Below are positions 4,786-41,350 of a stretch of 64,000 bases of DNA, piece by piece. The position numbers and the translations under genes are program-made. A model generated the notes under the pieces. It was given only the letters and a program-made list of their open reading frames with translations. It made no database searches and had not been told where the DNA came from. Source of the stretch: Catellatospora methionotrophica (lineage in GTDB: Bacteria; Actinomycetota; Actinomycetes; Mycobacteriales; Micromonosporaceae); assembly GCF_011297335.1 (NCBI RefSeq), contig NZ_JAAOTJ010000003.1, positions 248,001 to 312,000 on the forward strand, read 5' to 3'. Numbering within the stretch: position 1 is the stretch's first letter; the number at the start of each line of letters is the position of its first letter.

Positions 4786-4869
4786 TCACTTGTCGGCGGG
4801 CTCGGCGTCGGCGTCATCGGCGACGGGCTGCTCAGCCTCGGCGGTGGTCGGCTCCTCGGGAGCGGTCAC
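4786..4869 (-). CDS. 27-residue acidic small ORF at head of graspetide operon
   Basis: GTG start at 4869 preceded by a near-perfect Shine-Dalgarno AAAGGAGGT seven bases away, the strongest ribosome site in this operon. It reads MTAPEEPTTAEAEQPVADD then ADAEPADK and stops 45 bases before the precursor start. The peptide is acidic (nine Asp/Glu, one Lys) and Ala/Pro-rich with no signal peptide or HTH. It has two adjacent Thr and many carboxylates, so a second, degenerate ligase substrate is conceivable. A translated leader that controls the operon is the other option. I do not recognise a family. Confidence 0.55.
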   Translation of the reverse strand: MTAPEEPTTAEAEQPVADDADAEPADK

Positions 4870-4885
4870 AGCGGTTACCTCCTTT

Positions 4886-4898
4886 CCTCAAGTTGAGG
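4886..4898. promoter_or_regulatory. Palindrome just upstream of the graspetide operon ribosome site
   Basis: CCTCAAGTTGAGG is a perfect 6+1+6 palindrome. On the minus strand it reads TTGACCTCAACTTGAGG, directly before AAAGGAGGT of the small acidic ORF. CCTCAA/TTGAGG half-sites are typical of MerR-type operators. An operator for a regulator encoded nearby is possible; so is a small mRNA hairpin hiding the ribosome site. Confidence 0.4.
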
Positions 4899-4903
4899 TC
4901 AAT

Positions 4904-4940
4904 GGGTGCCCGCGCGGGTCGCAGCACCGCGCGGGCACCC
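4904..4940 (-). terminator. GC-rich hairpin between upstream ORFs and graspetide operon
   Basis: Perfect 14-bp arms (4904-4917 and 4927-4940) around a 9-base loop. On the minus strand it lies after the stop of the small wHTH-like gene and before the graspetide operon. It may end upstream transcription or act as an attenuator. No U-run follows. Confidence 0.55.
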
Positions 4941-4989
4941 CTCCGGCAGCCAACGGGAGAAATCGGCGACCGGAAGTTTCGTTGGCTTG

Positions 4990-5301
4990 TCAATGCGAAG
5001 TGCGCCACTCGCATCGAAGAAACCGGATGGCAGTCTCCGCGCCATTGCGCACGCGAACCGTCAGGTAGCGCTGATAAGGCACTGGCCCCAACAGGCGCTC
5101 ATGCATCAGTAGGGCTACCAACTCTGGAACCTGATGGTGAACCTGCCCTGCCTGATCGAGTGCTTCCGCCAGAGACCTGATCGTCCATTCGGCTTCCGGA
5201 TCGGCCAGCAGGGCATCAAGAATCGCCGCGCGGACCGGGAGAGGCCGAATCACGAAGCCCGCCCATGCGCGATACGTGGGCGGCTCACGAACGGCCACCA
5301 C
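4990..5301 (-). CDS. Small putative winged-helix protein
   Basis: 103 residues. The segment LPVRAAILDALLADPEAEW followed by TIRSLAEALDQAGQVHHQVPELVALLMHERLLG has the helix pattern of a winged-helix DNA-binding domain (helix 1, a short turn, the recognition pair, then a wing-like VPYQRYLTVRV). The frame has a TAA shortly before the first GTG (5301), so it is a separate ORF although it overlaps the preceding gene by 52 bases in another frame. It may regulate the graspetide operon just downstream. It could also be the 3' half of a gene broken by a frameshift. Confidence 0.5.
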   Translation of the reverse strand: MVAVREPPTYRAWAGFVIRPLPVRAAILDALLADPEAEWTIRSLAEALDQAGQVHHQVPELVALLMHERLLGPVPYQRYLTVRVRNGAETAIRFLRCEWRTSH

Positions 5302-5627
5302 GCCGTGCGCTTAGGACGTGGACGCGCAATTTCGCGCGCAGCGGGTACCGCCAGGGTCATCACTCGCGTCGGCCCCAGCAGGGCTGCGACCGAAGCCTCG
5401 GACACCGCGTGCTGCTCCTCCAGTACCGCCAGCACCCCGCAAGGCAAAGGCCGGAAACAAGAACATATGCCAAGCCGGGCGCGGTGCTGGGCCGCTAGGG
5501 CCACCGCAAGGTCGACGCGCTCCCGACTCGCGCGAATCCGCGACTCGAATACGTCGTCCAGATCATGCGACTTGAACTGCCGCCGGTCGACATCCGAGCT
5601 ACGTGCTTGAGTGCCCAGATCGCTCAC
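5250..5627 (-). CDS. Hypothetical protein
   Basis: 125 residues from a GTG at 5627, chosen because AGGGAGG lies eight bases upstream; the frame is also open to an upstream start at 5654. The protein has an Ala/Leu-rich middle (VDLAVALAAQHRARLG and VLAVLEEQHAVSEASVAALLG, which looks helical and HTH-like) and a basic tail. I do not recognise it. It overlaps the following small winged-helix ORF in a different frame, so the pair may be coupled genes or the two pieces of one frameshifted regulator. Confidence 0.4.
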   Translation of the reverse strand: MSDLGTQARSSDVDRRQFKSHDLDDVFESRIRASRERVDLAVALAAQHRARLGICSCFRPLPCGVLAVLEEQHAVSEASVAALLGPTRVMTLAVPAAREIARPRPKRTAWWPFVSRPRIAHGRAS

Positions 5628-5797
5628 ATCAGCCTCCCTCGCTAGGCAGCGCATTCCCGGTCTTGGACGTGAAACGCACTCATCCGCGCAGCACCTGCTC
5701 GACCACGACGCCGCGAACCATTCGACATTGGTGCGTTCCGATGCCCGTGTCGTGCACTTACCGTTACGTATCGCGTGCAGCCGAGGAACCCCGATCC

Positions 5798-5819
5798 AGG
5801 GGGCGATCTAGGGGGCGAT
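5798..5819. repeat. Direct repeat in divergent promoter region
   Basis: AGGGGGCGAT occurs at 5798-5807 and again at 5810-5819, a 12-base period of about one helical turn. It lies in the 412-base gene-free interval 5628-6039 between the leftward hypothetical gene and the rightward HTH regulator. Head-to-tail sites at this spacing are typical of regulator binding. Nothing else stands out in the interval. Confidence 0.4.
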
Positions 5820-6039
5820 TTGACTCGATCGGATGCCATGACGCCGAGAATCATCCAAGTGGAGTGCCCTCTGATCTGCGGTTATCTGGTCTGGGACCCA
5901 CGCCGAGACGTGGTGGCTTCGCGATTCCAGTCATAGATCAAGATGTTCGGCGCTTGGACGTCGGCTATGTGCGCTGCGATCCTGATGGCGACCAACGGGA
6001 GCACAGCGGATGAGCTGGCCAGGCGCGGCGGAGGTAATC

Positions 6040-7599
6040 ATGGGGCGGGTGGGGGACGATCGCGAACCCAACGATCAGTTGTACTGTGCGCGCACTCGAC
6101 TGCTGTCACTTACTGGCTCCGGGCTGCCGATGTCCCGCCAAGAGCTGGCCGACCGGGTAAACGTCTATCTATACGGCAGTAGTCGCCAAGAAATCGCCTC
6201 AGGTGTGGATGCGAAGTACATTGGGAAGCTTGAGCGCGGGGTTTACCGCTGGCCAAACGAGCTGTACCGGCAGGCTTTCCGGCACGTGCTGAAAGTATCC
6301 ACCGATGGCGAAATCGGCTTCTACGTTGCCCGACCGCAACGCAAGCAACTCGTCATGGTGTCGTCACCGGGGATCGATGGCGGCTACTCGTCGAACATCA
6401 TGTCCATGAGTAATGCCGAAATGATGAACGCGCCGGATGGAACCGACTGGCCAATGTGGTTTGCGATGAAGCTCGCGCATGCGATTTCCATCATTCACAA
6501 CCTGACCGGCGAGCACACCGAAACCCTGCAAACTCTGCTACATCAGGAGATTCTGATGTTTGACGCTTCCGCGCCGTCGGGCGCGCGCTTTGTGTTCGAC
6601 ACCTCGCGCCGCCAAGCTCTCATCACCCTAGCGACGCTGCCTCTCAGCTTTGGTATTCCGCGCGGGGGATCGGACGTCGGAGCAACCGAGATGTTTTTGG
6701 CACATTGCGGCGCAAGTCTTACCGCCTGCTGGCACTTACTTAAAGGCAGCGACCTCGAAACTGTAGACCGACTGCTCAACGGATATCTAATGCAGTTGGA
6801 GCTGGTGGCCCGCAAGCCGTCGAAGTATCAGGGCACCGCAGCGCGCCTCGCTTCGCAAGGACATCGGGTCAGCGGCATCATCGCTCTGCACCGTAACCAT
6901 TTGCGGGCACGCGAACACCACTGCAACCAGGCAGTGAAGTACGCCGAGCTGACAAACGACATTCCGAGCCAGGTGTCCGCCTTGATCTCGCTTGCCAGTA
7001 CGTACTTCTACGAAAGCGACCCCGTTCGCGCAGCGCACACGTACGAGAGGGCGCTGATCTTCGACGCCGGCATGTCACCGCTACAACGCTCGCGGACACG
7101 CGCAGAGCTGTCGGTGGTCTACGGGCAACTAGGCCAGGAACGCCAGACACTGGAATCGGCCGAGCTAGCCGAGGCGCTTTTCCCCGATCAGCCGGAGCAC
7201 GACCCGAGCTATCTATATGCCGAGTTCACGCGCGCCTCGCTGACTCTCGAACAGGGCCTCGCCTTCGCTGCGCTCGCTCAACGGTGCCCCACCCGTGGAT
7301 ACCAACAGACGGCCGCCGACGTGTTCTCCCGCATCGAGCAAGCCTCACCTTCAGCTGTCCCAGCGCGCATCAAATATGAGATCATCAATCATCAGGCGTC
7401 CACCGCCGTACTCCTCGGCGACATGGACGCCTTCGCCGGGTATCTCCACCAGGGAGTCGAAGGGGCCTTGCTGCTGGGCAGCAAGCAACGCCGCAAGGAG
7501 ATCCACACCGCGTGGCGACTCGCCGCCGACACCTGGCCTAACGAACCCCGTCTGAAAGCATTGGGACAAGACGTTATACCGACCCTGACCGCAGACTGA
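6040..7599 (+). CDS. Large HTH regulator with helical repeat domain
   Basis: 519 residues from the ATG at 6040, which has GGAGGT five bases upstream (an ATG at 6010 in frame lacks one). The N-terminus MSRQELADRVNVYL, then VDAKYIGKLERGVYRWPNELYRQAFRHVLKV, is an XRE-like HTH domain of about 70 residues. The remainder (from about residue 130) is a helical array, e.g. AVKYAELTNDIPSQVSALISLASTYFYESDPVRAAHTYERAL, resembling TPR-type sensor domains of large actinomycete regulators. GC content is lower than in the neighbours. An SDR gene follows 14 bases later, so both are probably co-transcribed. It may control this operon or the divergent graspetide cluster. Confidence 0.8.
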   Translation: MGRVGDDREPNDQLYCARTRLLSLTGSGLPMSRQELADRVNVYLYGSSRQEIASGVDAKYIGKLERGVYRWPNELYRQAFRHVLKVSTDGEIGFYVARPQRKQLVMVSSPGIDGGYSSNIMSMSNAEMMNAPDGTDWPMWFAMKLAHAISIIHNLTGEHTETLQTLLHQEILMFDASAPSGARFVFDTSRRQALITLATLPLSFGIPRGGSDVGATEMFLAHCGASLTACWHLLKGSDLETVDRLLNGYLMQLELVARKPSKYQGTAARLASQGHRVSGIIALHRNHLRAREHHCNQAVKYAELTNDIPSQVSALISLASTYFYESDPVRAAHTYERALIFDAGMSPLQRSRTRAELSVVYGQLGQERQTLESAELAEALFPDQPEHDPSYLYAEFTRASLTLEQGLAFAALAQRCPTRGYQQTAADVFSRIEQASPSAVPARIKYEIINHQASTAVLLGDMDAFAGYLHQGVEGALLLGSKQRRKEIHTAWRLAADTWPNEPRLKALGQDVIPTLTAD

Positions 7600-23139: not shown

Positions 23140-23778
23140 TCACAGGCTGCGTTTGAGCATCGCGTCGGCGAGCGCGTCGGCGCACTCGGCCAGGCGCAGC
23201 CCCACCACGTCCAGGCGGCGCAGCAGCTCGCGCTGCTTGAGCACCGGGCCGGTGATCTCGCCGCTGAGCAGGTCGGCCAGGCCCTGGGCGTAGAGGTGGC
23301 GGACCCGGCCGGAGCGCTTGTGCGCGGCCAGCGCCGCCTGCGCGGCCTCGGCCGGGCGGTCGACCAGCCGGTCCAGCGCCCGGCGCAGGTCGCGCAGCCC
23401 GATGGCGACCTGCTCCAGCATCGCCGCCGCGTTGTGGTCCAGGCGCACCCCGTAGAGGTCGGTCTCGCGTACGTAGTCGCGCAGGTGGTCGAGCACGTCG
23501 TCGACGGAGCGGGACAGCCGGAACAGGTCCTCGCGGTCGATCGGGGTGGCCAGCGTCGCGGCCAGTTCGGCGACCAGCCGCCCCCGGTGGGCGTCACCGT
23601 CGTGCTCGATCTCGGCGATCCGCAGCCGGGCCAGCGGCGGTTCGATGTCGCCGATGGTGACCAGCACCGCCAGCGCCACCCCTTCGAGCGCGGCGTCGAT
23701 CTGCGCCAGCACGATGGCCAGCACCCGCTTCGGAGCGCGCCCCGCGAGATCGTCCAGCACCCGTCGCAGCCTGATCAC
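23140..23778 (-). CDS. PhoU-like (DUF47) phosphate transport regulator
   Basis: 212 residues from a GTG with GGGAGGTG upstream. The protein is almost wholly helical with the repeated heptad layout of PhoU/DUF47 proteins (EHDGDAHRGRLVAELAATLATPIDREDLFRLSRSVDDVLDHLRDYV). The E/D-rich turn and 'TPIDREDLFRLSRSVDDVLD' are typical of the DUF47 members that accompany Pit transporters. It lies 40 bases downstream of the Pit gene in the same direction and probably controls its activity. Confidence 0.88.
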   Translation of the reverse strand: MIRLRRVLDDLAGRAPKRVLAIVLAQIDAALEGVALAVLVTIGDIEPPLARLRIAEIEHDGDAHRGRLVAELAATLATPIDREDLFRLSRSVDDVLDHLRDYVRETDLYGVRLDHNAAAMLEQVAIGLRDLRRALDRLVDRPAEAAQAALAAHKRSGRVRHLYAQGLADLLSGEITGPVLKQRELLRRLDVVGLRLAECADALADAMLKRSL

Positions 23779-23818
23779 GGTCACCTCCCGGCGGAACCGG
23801 TGCACCGGGCACCGGGGC

Positions 23819-24820
23819 TCACAGCGTGCCCCGCAATGCCAGACCTGCGACATATCCGAGGGTGAGGCTCGCGGGCACGGTTACCAGCCAGGCCGTCAGC
23901 ACCGGGGTGGCGAACTGCCAGCGGATGCGGCGTACGCCGGTGCTGGCCCCCGCGCCGACCAGGCCCGCGGTGGCCGACTGGGTCATGCTGACCGGCACGC
24001 CCATGCCCGCGCTGCCGAACACCGCGGTCGCCGACGCCAGACCGGCCGTGACCAGGGTCCACGGGCGTTGCGGGGTGAGCCCGCCGGTCGCGCCCCGGGC
24101 CATGCGCCGCAGGCTCAGCACCGCCCCTGCGGCGAACACGGCGGCCGTCGCGCACAGCAGCAGCAGCGGTGGGGCCTGCATCCCCCGAGCCCGGTGGGCG
24201 ACCCCGAGGGCGACTCCGACCACGGCGAACATCTTCTGCCCGTCGTTGGCGGCATACGCCAGGCTCTGCCCGGCGAACGCGGTGACGTGGGCGTAACGCA
24301 TGGCGCGCGGCAGCCGGGACGTCGTCGGCAGGCGGCGGGCGGCCATGCCGAGCAGGTAGCCCAGAGCGCCGCCGAGCAGCGGAGCGATCGCGGCGACCGC
24401 GAGCACGACACCCAGCGTGGACCAGGCGGGCGGCACGCCGAGTCCGGCCCCGACCCCGGCGAGTCCACCGAGGACGGCGAGGGTGACGCTGGTCGGCACA
24501 CCGCGCCAGGCCAGCGTCAGCACCAGGGCCAGTGCGACGCCGACCCCGGCGAGCACGACCAGGGGGCCGCGCACGTCACCGGCGTTGATCAGGCGGTCGG
24601 TGAAGGTGTGCGCCACGGCGAGCCCGAACAGCGCGGGACCGGCGATGATCGCCGCCAGCAGCACGGCCAGCACGACATAGAGCGGCAGTTCGCGCTGGCG
24701 CAGGGCCAGGGCGAGCAGCGCCCCGCCGTCGTTGGCGCCACAGACGAAGACGAACCCGGTGGCCAGCATCGCAAAGCCGATCACCACGGCCGACCACCCC
24801 CGACTCCGCCAGGAGTTCAC
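23819..24820 (-). CDS. Pit-family inorganic phosphate transporter
   Basis: 333 residues with about ten TM segments. The two inverted family signatures are present: FVFVCGANDGGALLALAL near the N-terminus and SLAYAANDGQKMFAVVGVAL in the second half (GAND/AND motifs of PiT carriers). It takes up phosphate, probably as metal-phosphate, with protons. The GTG start at 24820 has no good ribosome site; a GTG about ten codons further in is an alternative. Forms an operon with the PhoU-like gene. Confidence 0.88.
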   Translation of the reverse strand: MNSWRSRGWSAVVIGFAMLATGFVFVCGANDGGALLALALRQRELPLYVVLAVLLAAIIAGPALFGLAVAHTFTDRLINAGDVRGPLVVLAGVGVALALVLTLAWRGVPTSVTLAVLGGLAGVGAGLGVPPAWSTLGVVLAVAAIAPLLGGALGYLLGMAARRLPTTSRLPRAMRYAHVTAFAGQSLAYAANDGQKMFAVVGVALGVAHRARGMQAPPLLLLCATAAVFAAGAVLSLRRMARGATGGLTPQRPWTLVTAGLASATAVFGSAGMGVPVSMTQSATAGLVGAGASTGVRRIRWQFATPVLTAWLVTVPASLTLGYVAGLALRGTL

Positions 24821-24912
24821 CGTACGTGATCAACAGAGTTCCGCCGGCGGGAATCCTGATTGCCGCCCGACCGGGTGATCCTCTAGCGTCACCCGTCGGG
24901 AGGACAACACTG

Positions 24913-25644
24913 ATGGCGAAGCTGAACCAGATCATCGCGGTCGAGAAGGGCATCAAGTCCCGCTCGTTCCAGGACCTGACCGAGGCCCACCACGCCGTGC
25001 AGAAGCCGGCGCTGCTGTCGGGCATCTCGCGGACCTACCAGGCCAAGGACGAGGAGGGCGAACAACTGCCGCCGGAGTCCACCAAGGTGCAGGCCCGCGC
25101 CGAGGACGTGCTGCGCCAGATGGGCACCACGCTGACCCGGCTGTTCGACGTGACCGCGACCAAGGACGCCACCAACTGCGTGGCCCGCGCCGACGTGGTC
25201 GTCGACGACCGGGTGCTGCTGTCCGACGTGCCGGTGACGTACCTGCTGTTCCTGGAGAAGCAGCTCACCGACCTGCACACCTTCGTCAAGAAGCTGCCGG
25301 TGCTCGACGCCGCCGAGTCGTGGGTGTTCAGCGACTCCGCGGACTGCTGGTCCACCGAGCCGGTGCGTACCATCCGCACCAAGAAGGTGCCCCGCAACCA
25401 CGTCAAGGCCGAGGCGACCGAGAAGCACCCGGCGCAGGTCGAGGTGTACTACGAGGACATCGCGGTGGGCTACTGGACCACGGTGAAGTTCTCCGGCGCG
25501 CTGCCGGCCAAGCGGGTGTCGACGCTGCTGGAGCGGGTGGAGAAGCTGCAGCAGGCGGTCAAGTTCGCCCGCGAGGAGGCCAACAACGCCGAGGCGGTCG
25601 ACAAGCACGTCGGCGACCGGGTGTTCGGTTACCTGTTCGCCTGA
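24913..25644 (+). CDS. Unknown conserved-looking protein upstream of tandem Y-like RNAs
   Basis: 243 residues from ATG 24913 with GGAGG nine bases upstream. I do not recognise the family. It is charged and rich in Lys/Glu/Val: residues 1-60 look helical (AKLNQIIAVEKGIKSRSFQD), the middle alternates beta strands (CVARADVVVDDRVLLSDVPV), the part around 155-190 is basic (RTIRTKKVPRNHVKAEATEK), and residues 200-230 form a helix (LLERVEKLQQAVKFAREEAN). No signal peptide, TM segment or nuclease motif is visible. It is followed within 45 bases by two tRNA-like structured RNAs and a terminator, so protein and RNAs probably share one transcript. Binding of the RNAs is an inference from this layout and the basic patch. 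Confidence 0.8.
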   Translation: MAKLNQIIAVEKGIKSRSFQDLTEAHHAVQKPALLSGISRTYQAKDEEGEQLPPESTKVQARAEDVLRQMGTTLTRLFDVTATKDATNCVARADVVVDDRVLLSDVPVTYLLFLEKQLTDLHTFVKKLPVLDAAESWVFSDSADCWSTEPVRTIRTKKVPRNHVKAEATEKHPAQVEVYYEDIAVGYWTTVKFSGALPAKRVSTLLERVEKLQQAVKFAREEANNAEAVDKHVGDRVFGYLFA

Positions 25645-25687
25645 CCCATGAACTCCCCGCCGGAGGGCGGGGGGCGCGGAAGCGCAA

Positions 25688-25822
25688 GCTGAAACTGAAG
25701 CCGAAACTGAACAACGCGGTCCCAGTGCAGGTTCGAGTCCTGCCCACCCGCACCACCTGCGGGGGTAGCCCAACTGGCAGAGGCAGCCGCGATCAGACTC
25801 AGATTCTCGCTCCAGACTCAGC
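25688..25822 (+). ncRNA. YrlA-type Y-like RNA 1 (permuted tRNA mimic)
   Basis: From the inside out: acceptor-like stem 25745-25751 with 25759-25765 (6 of 7 pairs), closed by the loop ACCACCT; T arm GCAGG-TTCGAGT-CCTGC (25727-25743); D arm GCC/GGC (25768-25770, 25782-25784) with the conserved GG; anticodon-like stem GCGGT (25716-25720) with GCCGC (25786-25790), five pairs including one G-U. Beyond it an internal loop leads to an imperfect helix: CTGA/TCAG, GAA/TTC, AGC/GCT, CTG/CAG and GCTGA/TCAGC between 25688-25710 and 25799-25822. The acceptor end is closed and the RNA ends exit through the anticodon stem. This is the published architecture of YrlA Y RNAs, whose long stem binds Ro60/Rsr. 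Confidence 0.75.
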
Positions 25823-25831
25823 ATTCGCCGC

Positions 25832-25976
25832 CGAACACCAGATCGACCGCGTACGGGCGAAACCCCCGGGGTGCCGGTTCGAGCCCGGCCCGCACCTCTT
25901 CCTGGTGCGGTAGTCCAAACGGTAGAGACACGGGGTCGTCATGACTGACCCGTACGCTTAAACGTGCTGGTGTGCG
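25832..25976 (+). ncRNA. YrlA-type Y-like RNA 2 (permuted tRNA mimic)
   Basis: The acceptor-like stem CCGCACC/GGTGCGG (25890-25896, 25904-25910) is perfect and closed by the 7-nt loop TCTTCCT. T arm GCCGG-TTCGAGC-CCGGC (25873-25889), D stem GTC/GAC (25913-25915, 25927-25929) with GG in the loop, and anticodon-like stem CCCCG/CGGGG (25864-25868, 25931-25935) are all perfect. Outward, a perfect 9-bp helix GCGTACGGG/CCCGTACGC (25849-25857, 25949-25957) and a 7-bp helix ACACCAG/CTGGTGT (25835-25841, 25967-25973) extend the stem. Four independent helices agree with the inside-out tRNA model, stronger than for RNA 1. There is no free CCA end. Confidence 0.8.
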
Positions 25977-25994
25977 CAAATCGGCGGCACCCCG

Positions 25995-26025
25995 AGGCCC
26001 GGGAGAAGGACACTCTCCCGGGCTT
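25995..26025 (+). terminator. Intrinsic-type terminator after the Y-like RNAs
   Basis: GCCCGGGAGA (25997-26006) pairs perfectly with TCTCCCGGGC (26014-26023) across a 7-base loop, extended by A-U and G-U pairs at the base. It lies 20 bases after the second RNA and would define a common 3' end for the unknown gene plus both RNAs. Confidence 0.75.
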
Positions 26026-26111
26026 CACCATGTCCGGCGGACGACTCGTTACCGGTGGGTATTACCTGAGCATTCGCTCCGCTATGTGGCGTTCTGGAGT
26101 AAATTCATGTT

Positions 26112-26840
26112 ATGACCGAACCCGCGAGGGCGCGGCATGGCGTGCCGGGCCTCGCCCTCGGCACCGCGATGCTCGTCGCCGAACGACTCCGCCGACTCAC
26201 CTCTCCGGTCGACCCCGCCGAGCAGGCCCGCATCGAGGACATGCTCACCGGCGGCGTCGAGCCGTCCCCGGCCAGCGCCCGCTCCCCGGTCGCCGTCGCC
26301 GTCGGCCTCACCCAGCAGAGCTACGACCTCGCCGTACGCACCCGAAACCGGATCGGCGAGGCCACCCGTGGACAGGCCCGCCGGCTGGCCGACGCGACCC
26401 GCGCCGCACTACCGGCCTCGCCCATCGACACCGCCCGTGACGTCGTCAGCTCCGCCGGGCAGCGCGGGCACGACACGCTCGTGTCCAGCCGCGCCGCCGC
26501 GTCGGTCGCACTGCGCGACACCGTCGACGAGAGCCTGACCTGGGTCGAGAAGACCATCGTGCCCCGCATGATGGACAACCTGATGCCCTACCTGATCAAC
26601 AGCGTGGTGCCGCGCCTCGTCGAGGGCGCGATCCCCGAGATCAGGCGCAAGGTCATCCCCGTCGTGATCGACGACATGACCCGCGACCCCCGGCTCCAGG
26701 AACTGATCACCGAGCAGAGCCGTGGCGTGCTCGCCAACGCCACCGACGAACTGCGGGAGACCTCAGCCAGCGCCGACGACCGGATCGAGTCCTCGTTCCG
26801 CCGCGTCTTCCACCGCCATCACACGAACGGTGACAGGTGA
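26112..26840 (+). CDS. Hypothetical helical protein
   Basis: 242 residues. Not recognised as a family. The chain is mostly helical; the second half has the motif series WVEKTIVPRMMDNLMPYLINSVVP, RLVEGAIPEIRRKVIPVVIDDMT and DPRLQELITEQSRGVLANATDELRE, which looks like amphipathic membrane-associating repeats without a true TM helix. Its stop overlaps the GTG of the next gene (GTGA at 26837), so it is coupled to an RDD membrane protein and may act with it at the membrane. Confidence 0.75.
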   Translation: MTEPARARHGVPGLALGTAMLVAERLRRLTSPVDPAEQARIEDMLTGGVEPSPASARSPVAVAVGLTQQSYDLAVRTRNRIGEATRGQARRLADATRAALPASPIDTARDVVSSAGQRGHDTLVSSRAAASVALRDTVDESLTWVEKTIVPRMMDNLMPYLINSVVPRLVEGAIPEIRRKVIPVVIDDMTRDPRLQELITEQSRGVLANATDELRETSASADDRIESSFRRVFHRHHTNGDR

Positions 26841-33548: not shown

Positions 33549-33830
33549 TTATCCTTCGATCAGCTCATCGAGTTTACGGATTGATTCCGGAGTCCCCAGT
33601 TCATCAGCCGCAAACACGAGGCGCTTATAGTAACTCGAAGTAATTGATAGAGCATCCTCGTATAGCCATGAGCACATCGTATAGAACGCTAGCTCCTCTT
33701 CGCCCACGCTCATCAAATGGCGAACGTCTTCGATGACTTCTTCCCTAGTTAGCGGCGAGTCTTCAAGAAGTGCCGTAATGAGAGACCGCAGATAGACGTA
33801 CCGTTCCAATTGGCCTACCTTCTTCCTCAT
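33549..33830 (-). CDS. Putative immunity protein for the RHS-EndoU toxin
   Basis: 93 residues, wholly helical and acidic: VIEDVRHLMSVGEEELAFYT then MCSWLYEDALSITSSYYKRLVFAADELG. The pattern of a short helix pair with 'ED-V...L...GEEELA...C.WLYE' and a following 'I...YY.RL...A.ELG' resembles MafI-type immunity proteins. It starts 23 bases downstream of the toxin stop, the usual place for an immunity gene, and its low GC matches the toxin tip. It should bind and block the nuclease in the producing cell. Confidence 0.7.
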   Translation of the reverse strand: MRKKVGQLERYVYLRSLITALLEDSPLTREEVIEDVRHLMSVGEEELAFYTMCSWLYEDALSITSSYYKRLVFAADELGTPESIRKLDELIEG

Positions 33831-33852: not shown

Positions 33853-36800
33853 TCATAATCTCGGGAAAGCAGTGAGAAGTTTTCCTGTCAGTGGTACGAA
33901 CCGAACTTCGATGTCAACTCCTCGTATCTGTCCGAGAATTACTTGAACGGCAGGATCACCCGCCCTTGTTTTCAGAGTTTTGTCAGCATACTTGGCAGAG
34001 CCCGTTTTCCAGCTACGAACACTCTTCGGATCCGTGAGCACGTCCGCCACGGCGTCCAGGATGTCGTCGTCGCTCCACGACTGAGGAAAGGACGTCTTTC
34101 CCGGCATCCCAGGATGGGCGTGACCATCGAGGATATGCTGGGCATCCCCACCGAGAAGTTGTCGCCCAACGCCGCAGTTGTGAACGAGAACCGGAGTGGC
34201 CCCCGCCATGACATAGTACGTATGTATATCGGTGACCGTGAGGTTGTGGACTTCGGCACGAGCACCATACGTCGCCACTGCAGCGATGCGAACGAGCGAT
34301 CCGTCAGGCGCGAGCAAATCATCGCCAGACTTCAGCCCGAGGCTGTTCACCCACTCGTCACGCCCAGGGAGCCACCAGAGATGGTTGTCTGTTGAGCCGA
34401 TGGTGGCGGTCGCATCGCCGGCATCGCCATCGGTGTCGACGAGGACGTCGACAAGAACCTTCTCACCGTCGCTCGTGCGCTTTGTAGCTACCGCCTTGAT
34501 GGCGGACTCGCCAGTTTCAGGGTCGGTGGCTAGCACCTCGTCGCCAGCGCGCACTTTTTCGATCGGCTTAGTAGCGCCGTCGGCCATTAAGACAAGCGTC
34601 CCGGGGAGGAAGCTTTTAGCGGCGCAGGTTTCGTCGACTTCTTTTGCCTTGTTCTTAAGCTTCTCGGACGCCTTTCTTGCGGCCGCCTGAGCTCTTTCCT
34701 TCGCTTGCTTGGCTGCGGCCTCGGCTGCAATCCGCGCGTTACGAGCGGCTAGGGCTGCCGCTTCGGCTGCTTCTTTAGCTGCCTTTCGAGCGAGTTGGGT
34801 GAATTCTTCGACCTGGGCGATGATGCGTTTTGCCCAGCGGAGTTTCTCCCAGAAGACCTGGACTGCCGACCATGCGCGTTCGATGGCTTTGACGATCTTG
34901 GGGAGTTTAAAGAGTTTGGCCCAGGGGATGACATTGGCGACGATGGATACGCAGGCGACGATGTCGCCCTTGCCGAAGCAGTCCTTGATGTCGTTGATGC
35001 CGAGCAGTTCCATGAGGATGTCGCCGCCGGCCTGAAGGATGATGTCGAGCAGTGACATCTTCTGCAGTTTGCGGGCTTCGTCTAGCATGGCCTGCAGGTC
35101 GGGCGGGAGGGTGATCTCCCCGTCACCGGTCTCGGTTCCCTGGCCGTCGCCGTCGTTGGGCGGCGATCCCGGGTCGTCCGGGATGTGCTTGAGCCCGGAG
35201 GGGTCAGAGAAGGTGGTGGGGTTGTTGTTGGAGTAGGCGTAGCCGTTCATCTGCTGGGAGTCGCCCTGATCGACGATCGGGTCGACGGAGATGAACCGGC
35301 CGGTGTCGGGGTCGTACTCCCGAGCACTGAGGTGCGTCAGTCCTGTGCCGTCCTTCGCCCCGCCAAGAAATCCTTTGTCTCCTGTCCAGGCGGACGAAAC
35401 GCCACGTTCTTCACCAAAGGGGGTAGAACGGCGGCGTGCGACTGAAGCCGTATTGGTTGCGTCAACGAGCAGACTGCTAGTTCCTTGGTTGTTGGCGCAC
35501 ATCCATTGCAGGCTATTACCCGTCCGTACCGCGACTACTTGCCCTGCGAAGCTGTAGTACCGAGTGGCGTTCTTGGCCGTGCCGGTGAGCTTCAGTTCCG
35601 TGTCGGGTAGATAGAGGGTGGTGACGCCGTTCTCCTTGCGCAGCAGCCGGTTGCCGCTGGCGTCGTAGATGAACTCGGTGGTGTTTCCGCCTTCGACGAC
35701 CTTCTCAAGTCGTCCTTCGACGTTCCAGTGAAGTTCCTGGTTACCGGTCGGCGTCGGCCGACTTTCGACATTGCCAGCGGCATCGTGCTCCCAGTCGAAG
35801 GTGTGGATGCCGGCGCTGTCGGTGATCTTCGTTTGGAGGAGCTTGTGCGGGCTGCCCTGACCGGGTAGCGGGTAGGTGTAGTCGGTGGTGATGTCGCCGG
35901 TCGGGGTGTCGTGCTCGACCTGCTGGCTGCGGTTGCCGTAGTTGTCGTACTCCCAGTTGGTCCAGTACTTGGCGGGTCCGCCCAAGGCTCCGTTGGAGAC
36001 GGCTGCGGTGCAGTCTCCGCTGGTGGGGGTCCAGGCCTGCTTCAGCCGGCGGAGTCCGTCGTAGTTGAAGCACTGAGTGTCGGCGGTCTGGCCGGAGCCG
36101 GTGTCGACGGTCTTGGCGAGGTTGCCGGTGGCGTCCCAGGTGTAGACGGTCTTGGTGACGTTGCCGATGAGTCCGTCGCGGGTGACGGAGGTGTTGTCCA
36201 GGCGGCGGGTGCCTTCCTGGTAGACGAAGTTGAGGTTCACCCGGTTCGGATTGACTCCGAGAGTGAGCTTTGTAACCTCACCAAACGGGCTATACTGGGC
36301 AGTGTTGACATACGTGCCCAGACCTGAGGCCAAGGTCAGCGGCAGGCCCTCAGCCGTGTAGCCATGCGCAAGGACTTCTTCACCCAGATCACCGACCTGC
36401 GGCAGGGTTGTCGTCGCGATCGAGCCGTCCGTATTAAAAGTCGCCTTGTACTTGTATGTACCGGCCAGCAGACCTTCGACTGCAGGGATCGTGACGGCAG
36501 TTTCCAGCGGCCGGAAGTATTCGTCGACATCCAGGACTTCGGTCTTATAGGCCGCACCATTGACGAACCTGGTGGCGGAGGCGAGCAGGCCGGCACCGAG
36601 GGTGTCGTACTCCATTTCCGTCAGTTTGGTGCCAGTGTCGGCGTTGTCCTTGCGGGTCCGAATGATGCGGCCGAGCACGTCATACTCAAAGAAGATCTTC
36701 TTGTTGTTGGACTCGGTCGACAGCAAGTCACTCGACGAGTTGTAGTTCAGTTTGGTCGTGCCCTTGTCAGGATCGCTCTGCTCATACATCCGACCACGGA

Positions 36801-39800
36801 GATCGTACTTGTACGTCCAGGCGTTGTTGCTGGAGTCCTTGACCGCGGTCATCTGACTGCGCTTGTTGAACTCGTAGGTGGTCTTGACCGCAGGGCCGGT
36901 GTGGCTGGCGGTTGTGTATTCGTAGAACTCCTTCGCGCGGCCTTGAGCGTCAAATTTGACACGGGTTGGGGACTGGCCAGCCGCGGGTAGAGTGACGATT
37001 TCGTCGCCGTCGTAGAGCGCGCGGGTGCGCCATTGTTCGACGCGTGCGCCGCCGCCTGGAGGGCTGGCCATAAACACTTCTGCAGTGCGGCGACCAGCGC
37101 CGTCGTACTCGGTCTTAACCCCCGAAGATCCGGCGGAAGGGTGGTAGTCCACGGTCGGGGACGCAGTGTTGTAGAACGGGTTGTCCTGTCCAACGACCTG
37201 GCCGCGGGAGTTGTAGTAGGTGTTAACGATGGTGCGTCCGCCACCTGGGGCCGCTACCTGGGTCTGCACCGGCCGCATCAGCCCGTCAAACAGTTCGACG
37301 CTGACGTTGTAACCGCCGTTGGGGCGGATACCACGGGTGGTGACGGCGTTGATCTGGTTGGCGGTGCCCGACTTGCGGACCGTGTAGTCGTATTCGGAGC
37401 TGGGCAGGTCGACGCCCTTGGTCCGGCCCGGCAGCCACGCCTGCTTCATCCGGCCTAGGCCGTCGTAGACCATGTCGGTGCGCAGCCCGTTTGCGTCGAT
37501 CTGTGCGGTGGGCTGGCCGTTGCCGACCTCGAACTCGGTGCGGGTCTTGTGTCGCAGCGGGTTGTAGTTCTCCACGGCGGTGACTGGTCCGCCGGTGGTG
37601 GGGGTGTAGACGGTCTCCGACATCTTGCCGGCTTCGTCCCAGGTCTTCAGACCCCGGCCGTAGGCGTCGACCTCGCTCTTGGTGACCGTGACATAAGAGC
37701 GTCCGGTCGGCGACCACGTGTCGATCGCCTCGACGGAGGTGACCATGCCCTTGATCGGGACCTGGTTCGGCGTCCAGACGGTGGCACCGTCATACAGGGT
37801 CCGCTGGTCGGAGATCAGCAGTTCCTGGTTGGCGATCTCGGTGACCGGAACGCCCGTGGTCGGATTGAGGACGGGGATGTTCGCACATGCCAGGGCGTAC
37901 TTCTCGACGCGGGACGTGAGTCCCTGGATGTTCTTGGTGGGGTTGGGTGCGTAGGTGAGGCGGGTGCACTCCTCGTCGCCGGGAGTGTTCTTGTCACCCT
38001 GGTCCTCCATCATGACGACCTGGCCGTCGGCGTTGAACGTCTTGACGACCTGGTTGTCGCGCTCACCGCCCTTGATCACCGAGCGGACCAGGGTGTTGTT
38101 CATCCCGGACCGGGTGGCTTTGACCGTCGCCCACGGGTGGGTCGACGTCGCGGTCGCAGCCGACACCCAGCCGTCGGAGATCGACCGGTTCAGGACCGTC
38201 TTGGTGGCCAGGTCGGAGTCGTAGGAGATCCGCTCGCGGGGCTGTCCGGCGAGTTCGTCGAGGTCGCGGACGACCCCGCCGAGACCGTCGGTGATGTCGG
38301 TCTCCGACTGGGGCCGGTAGGACGTGGCGTTGGTGGGGTGGTTGCGGTCGCCGTCCATGCCCCGGTAGAACCGGGTCACTTCCAGGGTCCGGCCCTCGGC
38401 CGCGATGCCGGAGCGGGTCTGGACCTCGCCGTAGCCGCGCCACTGCGACCACGTCTTCTGCTCCGGGATCGTCAGGCCGTCGTCCTCGGCGTAACGCCAG
38501 GCGGCGTTGCCGACATAGTCGTAGCTGGTGGTGGTGGACGTGCCGATGCCGTGGCCGTCCTGCTCGTCGATCTGGGCGATCACATACTTGTGGAACCAGT
38601 ACAGGCCGATCGAGCCACCCGGCGGGGTCCACCACACCGGCATACACCGCTTGGTGTTGGTCTGCGGACTGGCCGGTAGCGTCGTGATCGTGCAGTCCAG
38701 CGGCTTGTAGGTGATCACCACCGCGCCACCGGACTCGTTCTTGATGTTGTTCATCCGCCACTTACGGACCTGATTGTTCGAACCCGACGTCACCCGGTTC
38801 GCCATGTGAGTTCCGTCGAATACCACCGGCGGCATCACCGCGTCCGTCGTTCCGAGGTGCCCGGTCTGCTGGATCTGGTTCAACCACAACACCGGTGTAC
38901 CGATATTGTCACCCGTGATCGGGAAGCTGTGGGTCAGCGTCCACGAGTCCACGTCGTCATACGCCCCGGCGCGGATGACCTGCGTGGTCACCTTCGACAG
39001 GCGCTTGGACGACCAGAACGTCGGCGCGTAGTCGTCACACGCCCCGACCAGGCACTCCTGATCCCACGGCACATCGCGGTAGTCGGCCGGCTTCACACAC
39101 GACGAACCCGGCACACACCGCTCGACATTGGTGAACTTCACCCGCGACGGAGCCGCCGTAGCCGTCCACGTCTGACCCGCCCGCAGCCCGTACTCGATCC
39201 GGTCGACCGTCCCACCACGGGTATACGACCGCGGACCACCCACGGTGATGTTGTGGTACCGGTTGGTCTCCGGATTGTAGAAGTACGCCAGGGCGTTGCC
39301 GTGCACATCCACGACATAGTCCAGGTTCCACCGCCACGCCTGGTCACACACCGACGTCGACGGATGCGTCAAAAAGCACGGCTCACCGGTGTTGTTACCG
39401 ACCACCGGCACCGTCCACGCCGAATTGCTGTCCGGCGCACCGGCCATCCCGGTCACACCCGCGTTCGCCGGCAGGGCCGACAGCTTGTGCACGCCGAAGA
39501 AGTACTGCGTACCGTCGGTCGTGGTGACCTTCCAGTACTCACCCTCGGTCGTGCCGTCACGGTTCTTGTCACCGTTGTTCGCACCGAGCAGCCGCTCGAT
39601 CTTCGAACCGTCGTCGTTACGGAACTTCCACACCCCAGTGGTGTCGTCCTTGACCAGCTCACTGGCCCGGCCGTTCAGCGAGATCGTCGCGTTGTCGCTC
39701 AGCCAGCACTGGTCATAGGTCGCCCAGCCATCCGACTGGCAGTCCTTGTACTTACGCTCGACATAACCCGGCCAGTAGTCGAAGCCCTCACCGATCGCCG

Positions 39801-40800
39801 AGGGCTGCGAGTTCGCAGAACTGGTCCGGCCGTCCACCGCACCGGCCGAGTACCCGAACGAGATCGACGGCGACGGCCCGCCCAGCGACGGCGGCACCCG
39901 CAACCCGTACGACCACGAGAAGTCACCGGTGTTGCTACCCGACTGCCACGTCGCCGACGCCGACAACGGCGAACTGGAGTAGCTACCGCCCTCACCGTCC
40001 GCACCGGCAGCAAGCGCCACCAGCGAACCACCCGACGCGACCAGCGAACCGCCCGCGGCCTGCGCACGATCGACCGAACCGACCGTCACACCGGTCACCG
40101 CCACATCAGCGGTCACGTTGCCCGCGGCGGTGTCGTTGACACCCGGTAGGGGCTTGCCCTGGCACTCGGCCCGCTCAGGCGTGGTCAGCGCACAGGCGGG
40201 CAGCGACACCAGCCGCAGCCGGGTCGCCCAGTCCGCACCGTAGGCCTCGCGGAAGCCCCGGTAGTCGACCTGCACCGACACCCGCGACGCACCCACACCA
40301 CCGTCACCACGGCCCAGACGGAACACCAGGCCATCACGCGCCGACACAGGCAACGACGCCTTGTCCAGCAGCGACACCGACACACTGCCCGGCACACCAG
40401 CCGAAGCGGCGGCACCGGCCAAGCCCTTCGACACCGCAGCACTCGGGCCACCCACAGTGACCGGCAAGGCCCCAGCCTTGACCCGGCCACCAGCCGCACC
40501 CGACGCACCAGCCGCCCGCCCAGCAGACGGCAACACCACCGTCGCCGAACCCGGCGCGGGCCAGGACACCTGCGGGCGGCCCTTCACCGCCAGCTTCTCG
40601 GCGTTGGTCGGACCAGCGGCCACGGACTTCGGCGTCCAGCTGGCCGGGACCGACTTCTCCACCTGAGGGATGTCGTCGGGGTTGGGCGCCGCCGCTGCGG
40701 GCAACGCCACAGCCAGCGACGACATCATCAAAAACGGTACGGCGAAAGCCAACCGCGCCAAACGCGGTCTAGGCCTCGGCCGCGCTAACAAATGTTGCAC
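33853..40800 (-). CDS. RHS-repeat polymorphic toxin with Hint and EndoU-like nuclease tip
   Basis: 2315 residues from GTG 40800 (GGAGG four bases upstream); GTG 40833, without a ribosome site, would add 11. Signal peptide LAFAVPFLMMSSLAVALPAAAA, a SpvB-like N-terminal region (SFGYSAGAVDGRTSS), then many RHS/YD repeats (YDGLGRMKQAW, YDLRGRMYEQ, YDNYGNR, HDAAGNVESR). The RHS core end is YDPDTGRFISVDPIVDQG...YAYSNNNPTTFSDPSGL. An Ala/Lys coiled coil follows. A Hint autoprotease domain spans about 2059-2209 (CAAKSFLPGTLVLMADG to VHNC). The last 106 residues (AQHILDGHA, GKTSFPQSWSDDDILD, VDIEVRFVP, LLTAFPRL) match the bacterial EndoU RNase pattern. It is a likely contact-delivered antibacterial toxin. 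Confidence 0.92.
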   Translation of the reverse strand: MQHLLARPRPRPRLARLAFAVPFLMMSSLAVALPAAAAPNPDDIPQVEKSVPASWTPKSVAAGPTNAEKLAVKGRPQVSWPAPGSATVVLPSAGRAAGASGAAGGRVKAGALPVTVGGPSAAVSKGLAGAAASAGVPGSVSVSLLDKASLPVSARDGLVFRLGRGDGGVGASRVSVQVDYRGFREAYGADWATRLRLVSLPACALTTPERAECQGKPLPGVNDTAAGNVTADVAVTGVTVGSVDRAQAAGGSLVASGGSLVALAAGADGEGGSYSSSPLSASATWQSGSNTGDFSWSYGLRVPPSLGGPSPSISFGYSAGAVDGRTSSANSQPSAIGEGFDYWPGYVERKYKDCQSDGWATYDQCWLSDNATISLNGRASELVKDDTTGVWKFRNDDGSKIERLLGANNGDKNRDGTTEGEYWKVTTTDGTQYFFGVHKLSALPANAGVTGMAGAPDSNSAWTVPVVGNNTGEPCFLTHPSTSVCDQAWRWNLDYVVDVHGNALAYFYNPETNRYHNITVGGPRSYTRGGTVDRIEYGLRAGQTWTATAAPSRVKFTNVERCVPGSSCVKPADYRDVPWDQECLVGACDDYAPTFWSSKRLSKVTTQVIRAGAYDDVDSWTLTHSFPITGDNIGTPVLWLNQIQQTGHLGTTDAVMPPVVFDGTHMANRVTSGSNNQVRKWRMNNIKNESGGAVVITYKPLDCTITTLPASPQTNTKRCMPVWWTPPGGSIGLYWFHKYVIAQIDEQDGHGIGTSTTTSYDYVGNAAWRYAEDDGLTIPEQKTWSQWRGYGEVQTRSGIAAEGRTLEVTRFYRGMDGDRNHPTNATSYRPQSETDITDGLGGVVRDLDELAGQPRERISYDSDLATKTVLNRSISDGWVSAATATSTHPWATVKATRSGMNNTLVRSVIKGGERDNQVVKTFNADGQVVMMEDQGDKNTPGDEECTRLTYAPNPTKNIQGLTSRVEKYALACANIPVLNPTTGVPVTEIANQELLISDQRTLYDGATVWTPNQVPIKGMVTSVEAIDTWSPTGRSYVTVTKSEVDAYGRGLKTWDEAGKMSETVYTPTTGGPVTAVENYNPLRHKTRTEFEVGNGQPTAQIDANGLRTDMVYDGLGRMKQAWLPGRTKGVDLPSSEYDYTVRKSGTANQINAVTTRGIRPNGGYNVSVELFDGLMRPVQTQVAAPGGGRTIVNTYYNSRGQVVGQDNPFYNTASPTVDYHPSAGSSGVKTEYDGAGRRTAEVFMASPPGGGARVEQWRTRALYDGDEIVTLPAAGQSPTRVKFDAQGRAKEFYEYTTASHTGPAVKTTYEFNKRSQMTAVKDSSNNAWTYKYDLRGRMYEQSDPDKGTTKLNYNSSSDLLSTESNNKKIFFEYDVLGRIIRTRKDNADTGTKLTEMEYDTLGAGLLASATRFVNGAAYKTEVLDVDEYFRPLETAVTIPAVEGLLAGTYKYKATFNTDGSIATTTLPQVGDLGEEVLAHGYTAEGLPLTLASGLGTYVNTAQYSPFGEVTKLTLGVNPNRVNLNFVYQEGTRRLDNTSVTRDGLIGNVTKTVYTWDATGNLAKTVDTGSGQTADTQCFNYDGLRRLKQAWTPTSGDCTAAVSNGALGGPAKYWTNWEYDNYGNRSQQVEHDTPTGDITTDYTYPLPGQGSPHKLLQTKITDSAGIHTFDWEHDAAGNVESRPTPTGNQELHWNVEGRLEKVVEGGNTTEFIYDASGNRLLRKENGVTTLYLPDTELKLTGTAKNATRYYSFAGQVVAVRTGNSLQWMCANNQGTSSLLVDATNTASVARRRSTPFGEERGVSSAWTGDKGFLGGAKDGTGLTHLSAREYDPDTGRFISVDPIVDQGDSQQMNGYAYSNNNPTTFSDPSGLKHIPDDPGSPPNDGDGQGTETGDGEITLPPDLQAMLDEARKLQKMSLLDIILQAGGDILMELLGINDIKDCFGKGDIVACVSIVANVIPWAKLFKLPKIVKAIERAWSAVQVFWEKLRWAKRIIAQVEEFTQLARKAAKEAAEAAALAARNARIAAEAAAKQAKERAQAAARKASEKLKNKAKEVDETCAAKSFLPGTLVLMADGATKPIEKVRAGDEVLATDPETGESAIKAVATKRTSDGEKVLVDVLVDTDGDAGDATATIGSTDNHLWWLPGRDEWVNSLGLKSGDDLLAPDGSLVRIAAVATYGARAEVHNLTVTDIHTYYVMAGATPVLVHNCGVGRQLLGGDAQHILDGHAHPGMPGKTSFPQSWSDDDILDAVADVLTDPKSVRSWKTGSAKYADKTLKTRAGDPAVQVILGQIRGVDIEVRFVPLTGKLLTAFPRL

Positions 40801-41350
40801 AGCTCCTCCGAGGAGTGGTGGGGAACCGATCACATGGGATACAGGGGCAGCACGGCACCGTTGTCCGGTGCCGTGCGCAAGGCAGTGATGTCAGAATTGT
40901 GGCGAGTCAACGGATCGCCGAGGCTCGCCCTATCGAGGCGCCCCCGGTCCTGTCTCGCTCCGGAATGGCCGGACGGCGTCATCGCCGTGCCGGAATGCGT
41001 AAGCAGTCACCCGATTTCGGGCAGAATCCGCCGCCACCACTCGTTTCATGACCTACCGTCCCCCGTGAACCATGGTCGTTGGCGATGACCGTAGGGCCGT
41101 CCGGCAGACCCGTCAAGACTTTCGTACGACGCGGTATCGCCCTTGCACAACCTGCAATCCGTGCGACGCAGTGCTGCTGATTCGGCTGATCACACAGATG
41201 ATGGCGCATACAAGCATCTCGATCACATCGACAAAAAGCCATGTCTTGGAAGGTTGCAGTGGGAATCCACTCACGGCCCTGCCCCGCCGTAGACATTTCC
41301 GCCCTCCGGCCCTAGCCTCCTGCCACCATCAATATCCAGGAAGAGGTTTC
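40801..41350. other. Divergent promoter region between toxin and giant secreted protein 1
   Basis: 550 bases without a supported gene between the leftward RHS toxin and the rightward DNRLRE protein. Both promoters must lie here. No clear palindrome or sigma-factor consensus was recognised. Confidence 0.4.

Follow-up and report, generated by a model that had tools for sequence, protein, structure and literature searches.

The gene of a DUF7873 protein and the RNA lying next to it very probably constitute one, so far undescribed, protein-RNA machine, because many phages and soil bacteria carry the same gene and the same RNA as neighbors. The pair in question is found in Catellatospora methionotrophica (in the window, i.e., the whole 64,000-nt stretch of DNA analyzed), in which the RNA follows the gene on the + strand, from 25655 to approximately 26025, and comprises, within approximately 370 nt, two inside-out tRNA modules (Table 1). 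A second protein family, besides Ro60, would thus be coupled to inside-out tRNA RNAs, across phages of very different hosts, the biology of phage tRNA islands would gain a concrete protein-RNA machine to test, and a large DUF family (one search, with 7999 candidates scored, yielded at least 7618 relatives) would gain a candidate role. The pair also raises the question of whether the tRNA machinery processes modules of permuted tRNA type.

Table 1. Features of the DUF7873 gene and of the adjacent RNA (window positions).
Feature	Position	Strand	Basis
DUF7873 (PF25283) gene, 243 aa	24913..25644	+	Pfam match 398.6 bits, residues 1-242
5' hairpins (7 bp; GCGC/GCGC)	25655-25672; 25674-25685	+	sequence; both in minimum-energy fold
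Block 1, four hexanucleotides AAGCTG AAACTG AAGCCG AAACTG (consensus ARNYUN)	25686..25709	+	
Module 1, inside-out tRNA-like	25715..25791	+	Rfam comparison; covariation on alignment A6 (homologues, window row left out)
Module 1, anticodon-type stem	25715-25719/25787-25791		
Module 1, T arm	25727-25743		
Module 1, acceptor	25745-25751/25759-25765		
Module 1, acceptor loop ACCACCT (contains ACCA)	25752-25758		
Module 1, D arm	25768-25784		
Block 2, ARNYUN repeats flanking conserved TCGCTC (25807-25812)	25792..25826	+	
Domain B	25825..25998	+	alignment A5; covariation; model R1
Domain B, helices	25827-25832/25983-25988; 25835-25841/25967-25973; 25849-25857/25949-25957		
Domain B, conserved internal loop ATCGACC/CTTAAACG	25842-25848/25957-25964		
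Module 2, inside-out tRNA-like	25864..25935	+	Rfam comparison; alignment A5 and covariation
Module 2, anticodon-type stem	25864-25868/25931-25935		
Module 2, T arm	25873-25889		
Module 2, acceptor	25890-25896/25904-25910		
Module 2, acceptor loop TCTTCCT	25897-25903		
Module 2, D arm	25913-25929		
10-bp GC-rich hairpin at the 3' end, possibly a terminator lacking a T tract	25997..26023	+	sequence; fold

The Protein

The 243-residue protein, left unrecognized in a sequence-only reading of the window, belongs to Pfam family DUF7873, a family with no assigned function, scoring 398.6 bits versus a curated cut-off of 27 bits; at E <= 0.01 Pfam returns this family alone, with no TROVE domain. The genome of C. 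methionotrophica (8.39 Mb, 56 contigs) contains a single DUF7873 match, and the closest relatives of the protein are proteins named Catellatospora. The AF2 model of the monomer (pLDDT 92.8, pTM 0.70) produced, in structure comparison, no confident structural relative and no functional lead. No mention of DUF7873 was found in the literature searched, and the DUF7873-RNA pairing is not described among the matches listed for the literature on Y RNAs, permuted tRNAs, two-piece tmRNAs and phage RNAs; we make no claim of novelty in print.

The Inside-Out Modules

The same reading had proposed two inside-out tRNA modules downstream of the gene, and their positions are confirmed, with RF02553 (YrlA) as the best Rfam family for both (module 1: 25703-25809, 25.4 bits, E 0.0033; module 2: 25854-25945, 21.4 bits, E 0.047). 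The Rfam search thus agrees with it as to family and falls short as to score, both matches remaining under the gathering score of 69, and no family in the window search passing its gathering score at the locus. As the two reported YrlA copies near rsr in the same genome also remain under this score (55.4 and 42.6 bits), it does not discriminate here. The proposed geometry of module 2 is likewise borne out: its acceptor (7), T (5), and anticodon-type (5) stems pair perfectly, and perfect stems of 9 and 7 bp close it, to which a perfect 6-bp stem can be added. In module 1, the acceptor contains a single A.G mismatch and its strand is preceded by an additional base.

The sequence from 25650 to 26026 (377 nt) folds at -184.4 kcal/mol, compared to -154.3 +/- 5.6 for shuffled sequences, none of 100 being as low (z = -5.3), and block 1 is paired with block 2 in the minimum-energy fold of the window sequence. 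This single-sequence fold forms neither T arm (in the centroid, the one belonging to module 2 is present), and therefore the modules rest on comparison. A GC hairpin at the 5' end of the RNA is visible by eye in most of 23 bacterial sequences. Overall, the conservation points to a single unit of approximately 370 nt rather than to two separate RNAs. The suggestion of a Y-RNA system with a different protein and paired RNAs is thus partly supported: the linkage is to DUF7873 and not to Ro60, in bacteria and in phages, and one double-domain unit is likelier than paired RNAs. The terminator that the gene and the RNAs were proposed to share did not emerge, a simple scan of the locus detecting no T-rich terminator and also missing the 3' hairpin.

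A module detector blind to the protein fired 438 times in 338 downstream stretches of 700 nt, its scan sets overlapping, versus 9 times in 1670 shuffled ones. ARAGORN calls overlap detected modules in 17 cases: 13 of these (12 in Streptomyces, one in L115) extend over block 1 and the T arm and are regarded as false, and four are real-looking tRNAs, at three modules, all viral, that border real tRNA genes (L143, L170, L346). The 12 Streptomyces calls, across the T arm of module 1 and block 1, are given as tRNA-Phe, tRNA-Leu or undetermined (e.g., L027, 3765-3850), and genome annotations may therefore carry false tRNAs at such sites. Tandem tRNA genes, at 40-45 bits with both RF02553 and the domain B model R1 (see below), are a false-positive trap in searches for inside-out tRNAs. 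A candidate third class, an orphan YrlA-like RNA in Streptomyces (L352, L356, L357, L363; acceptor loop GCTCGR/GCGCGG), was dropped because L357 (1480-1628), the one of the four that was read, represents two tandem, near-identical tRNA genes, as the other three perhaps do too.

Linkage in Bacteria

The possibility that homologues of the protein never lie beside such RNAs can be set aside, as a module is present in 79/80 bacterial and 164/193 viral loci. The bacterial set represents the best 80 of at least 555 DUF7873 loci, and the modules counted lie within 700 nt downstream of the gene and on its strand, two of them together in 66 loci; in the remaining sequence of these loci, 1.71 Mb altogether, the detector made 72 calls on the gene strand and 20 on the opposite strand. 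The single bacterial locus missed (L017) has a module visible by eye. Of all modules detected in the 700-nt search zone, 425/445 are found within 400 nt of the DUF7873 stop codon. In some Streptomyces (L023, L043, L064, L068, L082) module 1 is reduced, as judged by eye, to a short hairpin, and, together with the one-module phage loci described below, this indicates that two modules are not essential.

The linkage is also apparent in whole genomes, as searched with R1, a model built from 36 bacterial domain B sequences (179.1 bits on the domain B of the window, which belongs to the training set). Among 148 genomes of the class, nine encode DUF7873, and R1 scores at least 76 bits in exactly these nine, beside the gene, other matches being partial, except in G386, in which a full-length match (33 bits) lies close to an Rsr match. 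Among 61 genomes of the family, 29 encode DUF7873, and each of the 29 possesses a full-length R1 match adjacent to it, with scores of at least 62.8 bits in 28 and of 45.2 bits in one (G423); for the 32 genomes without DUF7873, no full-length match above 36 bits was reported (35.4 bits in G437). The two samples overlap (at least in G000 and G204), and 18 or 45 candidates were scored per genome. Since DUF7873 loci underlie both R1 and the linkage samples, the RNA may exist without DUF7873 in forms not seen by them. R1 also matches the DUF7873-linked RNA of L370 over its whole length (81.6 bits). The gene itself occurs in one of 14 control genomes (Deinobacterium chartae) and in 4 of 72,556 plasmid records.

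Presence in Phages

By tblastn, DUF7873 is found in 73 of 50,697 phage records, the hosts including Vibrio, Gordonia, Rhizobium, Klebsiella, Serratia, Arthrobacter, Pseudanabaena, Rhodococcus, and Microcoleus. Ten of these records were opened: eight have at least 400 nt without annotated features after the gene, and seven have annotated tRNA genes in its 2.5-kb flanks. The 193 distinct viral loci (the ten phage records included; zone of 700 nt) each extend for 500 nt or more beyond the gene, and the 164 positive ones have at least one module on the gene strand; of the 29 with none detected, three were inspected (L201, L226, L241), each containing a recognizable deviant module. R1, although trained on bacteria only, recognizes the RNA in 63 of the 71 viral contigs used (80 loci minus 9 left out, a few of those kept being near-identical), at 49.6-142 bits and always on the gene strand. 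Among the ten named phage loci, an R1 match lies next to the gene in six (L090-L094 and L099, the last two partial), modules are detected with no R1 match in three (L095, L096, L097), and in Microcoleus phage My-WqHQDG (L098) neither is found after DUF7873. Among the 79 loci belonging to the proteobacterial-phage type, 58 show a single module. About half of the viral loci (102/199) contain tRNA genes as called by ARAGORN, 395/397 of these calls being on the gene strand. Two other RNAs were seen in these loci: a HEARO RNA (129 bits) directly after DUF7873 in L098 (3450-3659), and a tmRNA match (89 bits), absent from the annotation, among the tRNA genes of Gordonia phage Phendrix (L091, 572-1100).

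Conservation of the Fold

The sequence-only reading had staked itself on covariation of the stems in homologues, and the stems of both domains do covary, no shuffle out of 500 reaching the observed value in either. In domain B, 93.6% of cells are paired and double-sided changes occur in 31/42 pairs, with a covariation of 0.438 versus 0.184 +/- 0.008 for shuffled alignments and 0.09-0.12 for slid ones, the weak part being the anticodon-type helix (74% paired). In domain A (42 sequences, bacterial and viral), 89.3% are paired, with double-sided changes in 24/31 pairs and a covariation of 0.398 versus 0.153 +/- 0.010 shuffled and at most 0.157 slid; pairing is weaker in the anticodon-type helix (67%) and in a block 1 self-hairpin (74%). 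Over 67 loci, all eight inner pairs below module 2 exceed all 500 shuffles, while only 3/8 positions of the outer stem of domain B covary in a gap-free count. One pair of domain B, 25835/25973, is not maintained, being unpaired in 28/36 sequences.

Four perfect A...T. hexamers between the gene and the first module are present in 92 of 203 non-redundant loci, and at least seven of the eight fixed positions in 161; in mononucleotide shuffles, depending on the group, eight of eight are reached in 0-1% and at least seven in 0.2-14%. When 116 loci were picked by their other three hexamers, the held-out hexamer began with A in 102 and had T as its fifth base in 99, suggesting a nucleotide rather than an amino-acid constraint and making block 1 unlikely as a coding sequence. 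ARNYUN is self-complementary, every three positions providing two pairs and one mismatch, and the partner of block 2 may be block 1 or, alternatively, block 2 itself. Block 1 pairs with block 2 of its own locus at -16.16, compared to -14.69 +/- 0.42 upon permutation (1/2000; 14/2000 in 22 viral loci), and because own-locus pairing beats pairing across loci, the two blocks together probably form a long stem below module 1. A self-hairpin of block 2 covaries at positions 1, 3, 5, and 9 (58 distinct loci; at most 11/500 shuffles); it was rejected as the sole fold, the duplex of blocks 1 and 2 being lower in energy. As ARNYUN pairs with itself, both structures are possible, and a switch between them may be entertained as an idea only.

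Signals of tRNA Processing

NCCA opens 118 of 284 unique acceptor loops in the DUF7873 loci, placing CCA exactly at tRNA positions 74-76, and at five other offsets it opens 2, 2, 5, 3, and 2 of the 284; T is found at position -1 of the 5' acceptor strand in 144. By group, NCCA is present in 35/145 bacterial modules, in 9/14 from named phages, and in 63/117, 55/68, and 32/101 from three overlapping viral scans, and T at -1 in 43/145, 4/14, 83/117, 40/68, and 66/101, respectively. For real tRNAs on the gene strand of de-duplicated viral loci, CCA is encoded in 18/55, 19/175, 65/94, and 16/69, and T at -1 in 31/55, 72/175, 48/94, and 37/69. By both signals, therefore, the viral modules resemble tRNA genes, NCCA being at least as frequent. 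RNase P prefers U at -1 and makes contact with the RCCA end. NCCA in register suggests tRNA-type processing of the modules, and their cutting appears plausible in phages and less clear in bacteria. This departs from the picture of tRNA mimics lacking a free CCA end: many acceptor loops in the family encode tRNA 3' ends, and the modules may therefore gain a free CCA end after processing.

Comparison with Known RNAs

Bacterial Y RNAs are partners of Ro60. The absence of Ro60, claimed earlier, is true of the locus, no rsr being present beside DUF7873, and false for the genome, because a TROVE (Ro60-type) protein is encoded on contig C55 (51.8 bits; gene 4819-6348, minus strand, within L084, G000:C55:203000-217000), accompanied by three YrlA-type RNAs of inside-out form, which are located 0.9-1.4 kb upstream and on the same strand as this rsr (near L084 positions 7272, 7419, and 7720). 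The acceptor loops of these three have no NCCA. YrlA is described as an RNA of 90-150 nt with one module, a stem formed by the 5' and 3' ends, and D, T, and acceptor arms (PMC8394870). The DUF7873-linked modules are alike in being inside-out, in their D, T, and acceptor arms, in their long basal stem, and in having a protein gene nearby. They differ in that the RNA is approximately 370 nt in length and holds two modules, each with its own stem, in the frequent NCCA loops, in the mismatch-periodic ARNYUN helix, and in the conserved internal loop of domain B; unlike in YrlA or the RYPER complex, the protein is DUF7873 and not Ro60, with no rsr adjacent, and the spread among phages is wide.

Other parallels are more distant. 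GOLLD and ROOL, presented as large structured phage RNAs of unknown function near tRNA islands (PMC12286853), share with the RNA in question its phage occurrence near tRNA genes, whereas this RNA is smaller, is coupled to a protein gene, and carries tRNA-like modules within its fold; neither family has an Rfam match in the window or in the 11 loci searched. Transcripts of circularly permuted tRNA genes are circularized and then cut into normal tRNAs (PMC10085705); the order of the halves, 3' before 5', is the same, while the DUF7873-linked modules possess long stems in place of the anticodon arm.

Possible Role of the Pair and Alternative Readings

The pairing of gene and RNA is strongly, if indirectly, supported by sequence comparison, and we consider it fairly probable that the pair is a dedicated DUF7873 ribonucleoprotein presenting two tRNA mimics to tRNA-handling enzymes, i.e., a Y-RNA-like particle with another protein. 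DUF7873 and the RNA would assemble as one particle, in which DUF7873 would bind the long stems, at the mismatch-periodic helix in domain A and at the conserved internal loop in domain B, in the manner of Ro60 on a Y-RNA stem, and the two modules would be offered to the enzymes. Some modules, judging from the RNase P and 3'-end signals, would probably be cut open to true tRNA-like acceptor ends. The particle might then serve as a decoy, a gate or a tether for tRNA-binding, tRNA-trimming or tRNA-cleaving enzymes, among which those acting on the acceptor, T or D arm are the likelier targets, because the modules have no anticodon loop. In phages it might perhaps act alongside the phage tRNA genes, to be later taken over by actinobacteria. 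Such a decoy role fits with the hypothesis that phage tRNAs answer the tRNA-cutting defenses of the host (PMC10264068), and with the suggestion that the tRNA-like domain of YrlA could inhibit an anticodon nuclease (PMC7790460). A bolder version, which we consider doubtful, has both acceptor loops cut, RNase P and the enzymes of tRNA 3'-end processing being the agents. The RNA would then consist of three pieces, and DUF7873 would hold its two genuine tRNA-like acceptor ends, which might be aminoacylated. Such a particle would represent a new class of phage ribonucleoprotein, neither Y RNA nor tmRNA, competing with or replacing tRNAs in infection.

We think it unlikely that the RNA is a double YrlA of the RYPER type, with DUF7873 in the place of Ro60 and the modules tethering PNPase or another nuclease to degrade structured RNA. 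The architecture of a basal stem with inside-out D, T, and acceptor arms is that reported for YrlA (PMC8394870), and RF02553 is the best Rfam match, yet DUF7873 has no match to the TROVE/Ro60 families in Pfam, NCCA loops are rare near Rsr (where an Rsr match is present, they occur in 2/20 detected modules, one of which is at a distant and doubtful site), and R1 scores approximately 20-42 bits on Rsr-linked RNAs, mostly over the tRNA module alone (the full-length exceptions being L361 at 33.0 bits and one match in L084 at 29.1). Decidedly unlikely is a cis-acting 3' UTR of the DUF7873 mRNA, in which the modules would invite cuts by RNase P or related enzymes, or the protein would regulate itself. 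The position of the modules close downstream on the same strand, the processing-like signals in the acceptor loops, and the result of a simple scan, by which no sigma-70-type promoter was found in 24700-26200, all speak for it; what argues against it are the two covarying domains and the conserved internal loops, common to bacteria and phages, which exceed the needs of a cleavage site or an operator.

A tmRNA-like function, with block 1 translated as a short tag of alternating Lys/Arg/Ser and Leu/Phe, is very improbable. The hexamers can be read as ARN-YUN codons, and the permuted tRNA domains, with the 3' half ahead of the 5' half, are reminiscent of two-piece tmRNA (PMC10085705, PMC9004378), processing of the joining loop being plausible for the DUF7873-linked RNA as well. 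However, this RNA has D arms, often two domains, another protein, and no convincing tag frame: though block 1 reads as alternating codons, no common in-frame stop is seen by eye in the sequences read, CGN occurs once and TCN never in the held-out hexamer, and pairing with block 2 accounts for block 1. No Rfam match to tmRNA (RF00023) is found in the window, nor after the gene in 11 loci. Chance or tRNA debris, i.e., tandem tRNA genes misread as inside-out modules, has a probability close to negligible: such misreading did occur with the RF02553 and R1 matches of L357, and three detected modules do border real tRNA genes, but ARAGORN finds no tRNA in the window, the flanking stems covary, and strong full-length R1 matches are limited to DUF7873 genomes in the two samples.

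Neighboring Genes

Divergent from the DUF7873 gene, on the minus strand, are the genes for a PhoU-like (DUF47) protein and a PHO4 phosphate transporter (window 23143-24820). Further along, also on the minus strand, a 2326-aa open reading frame (33853-40833) appears by eye to be Rhs/YD-repeat-like, with a Hint-like stretch near the C-terminus, and is followed by a small open reading frame (33549-33830), in a polymorphic-toxin-like arrangement.
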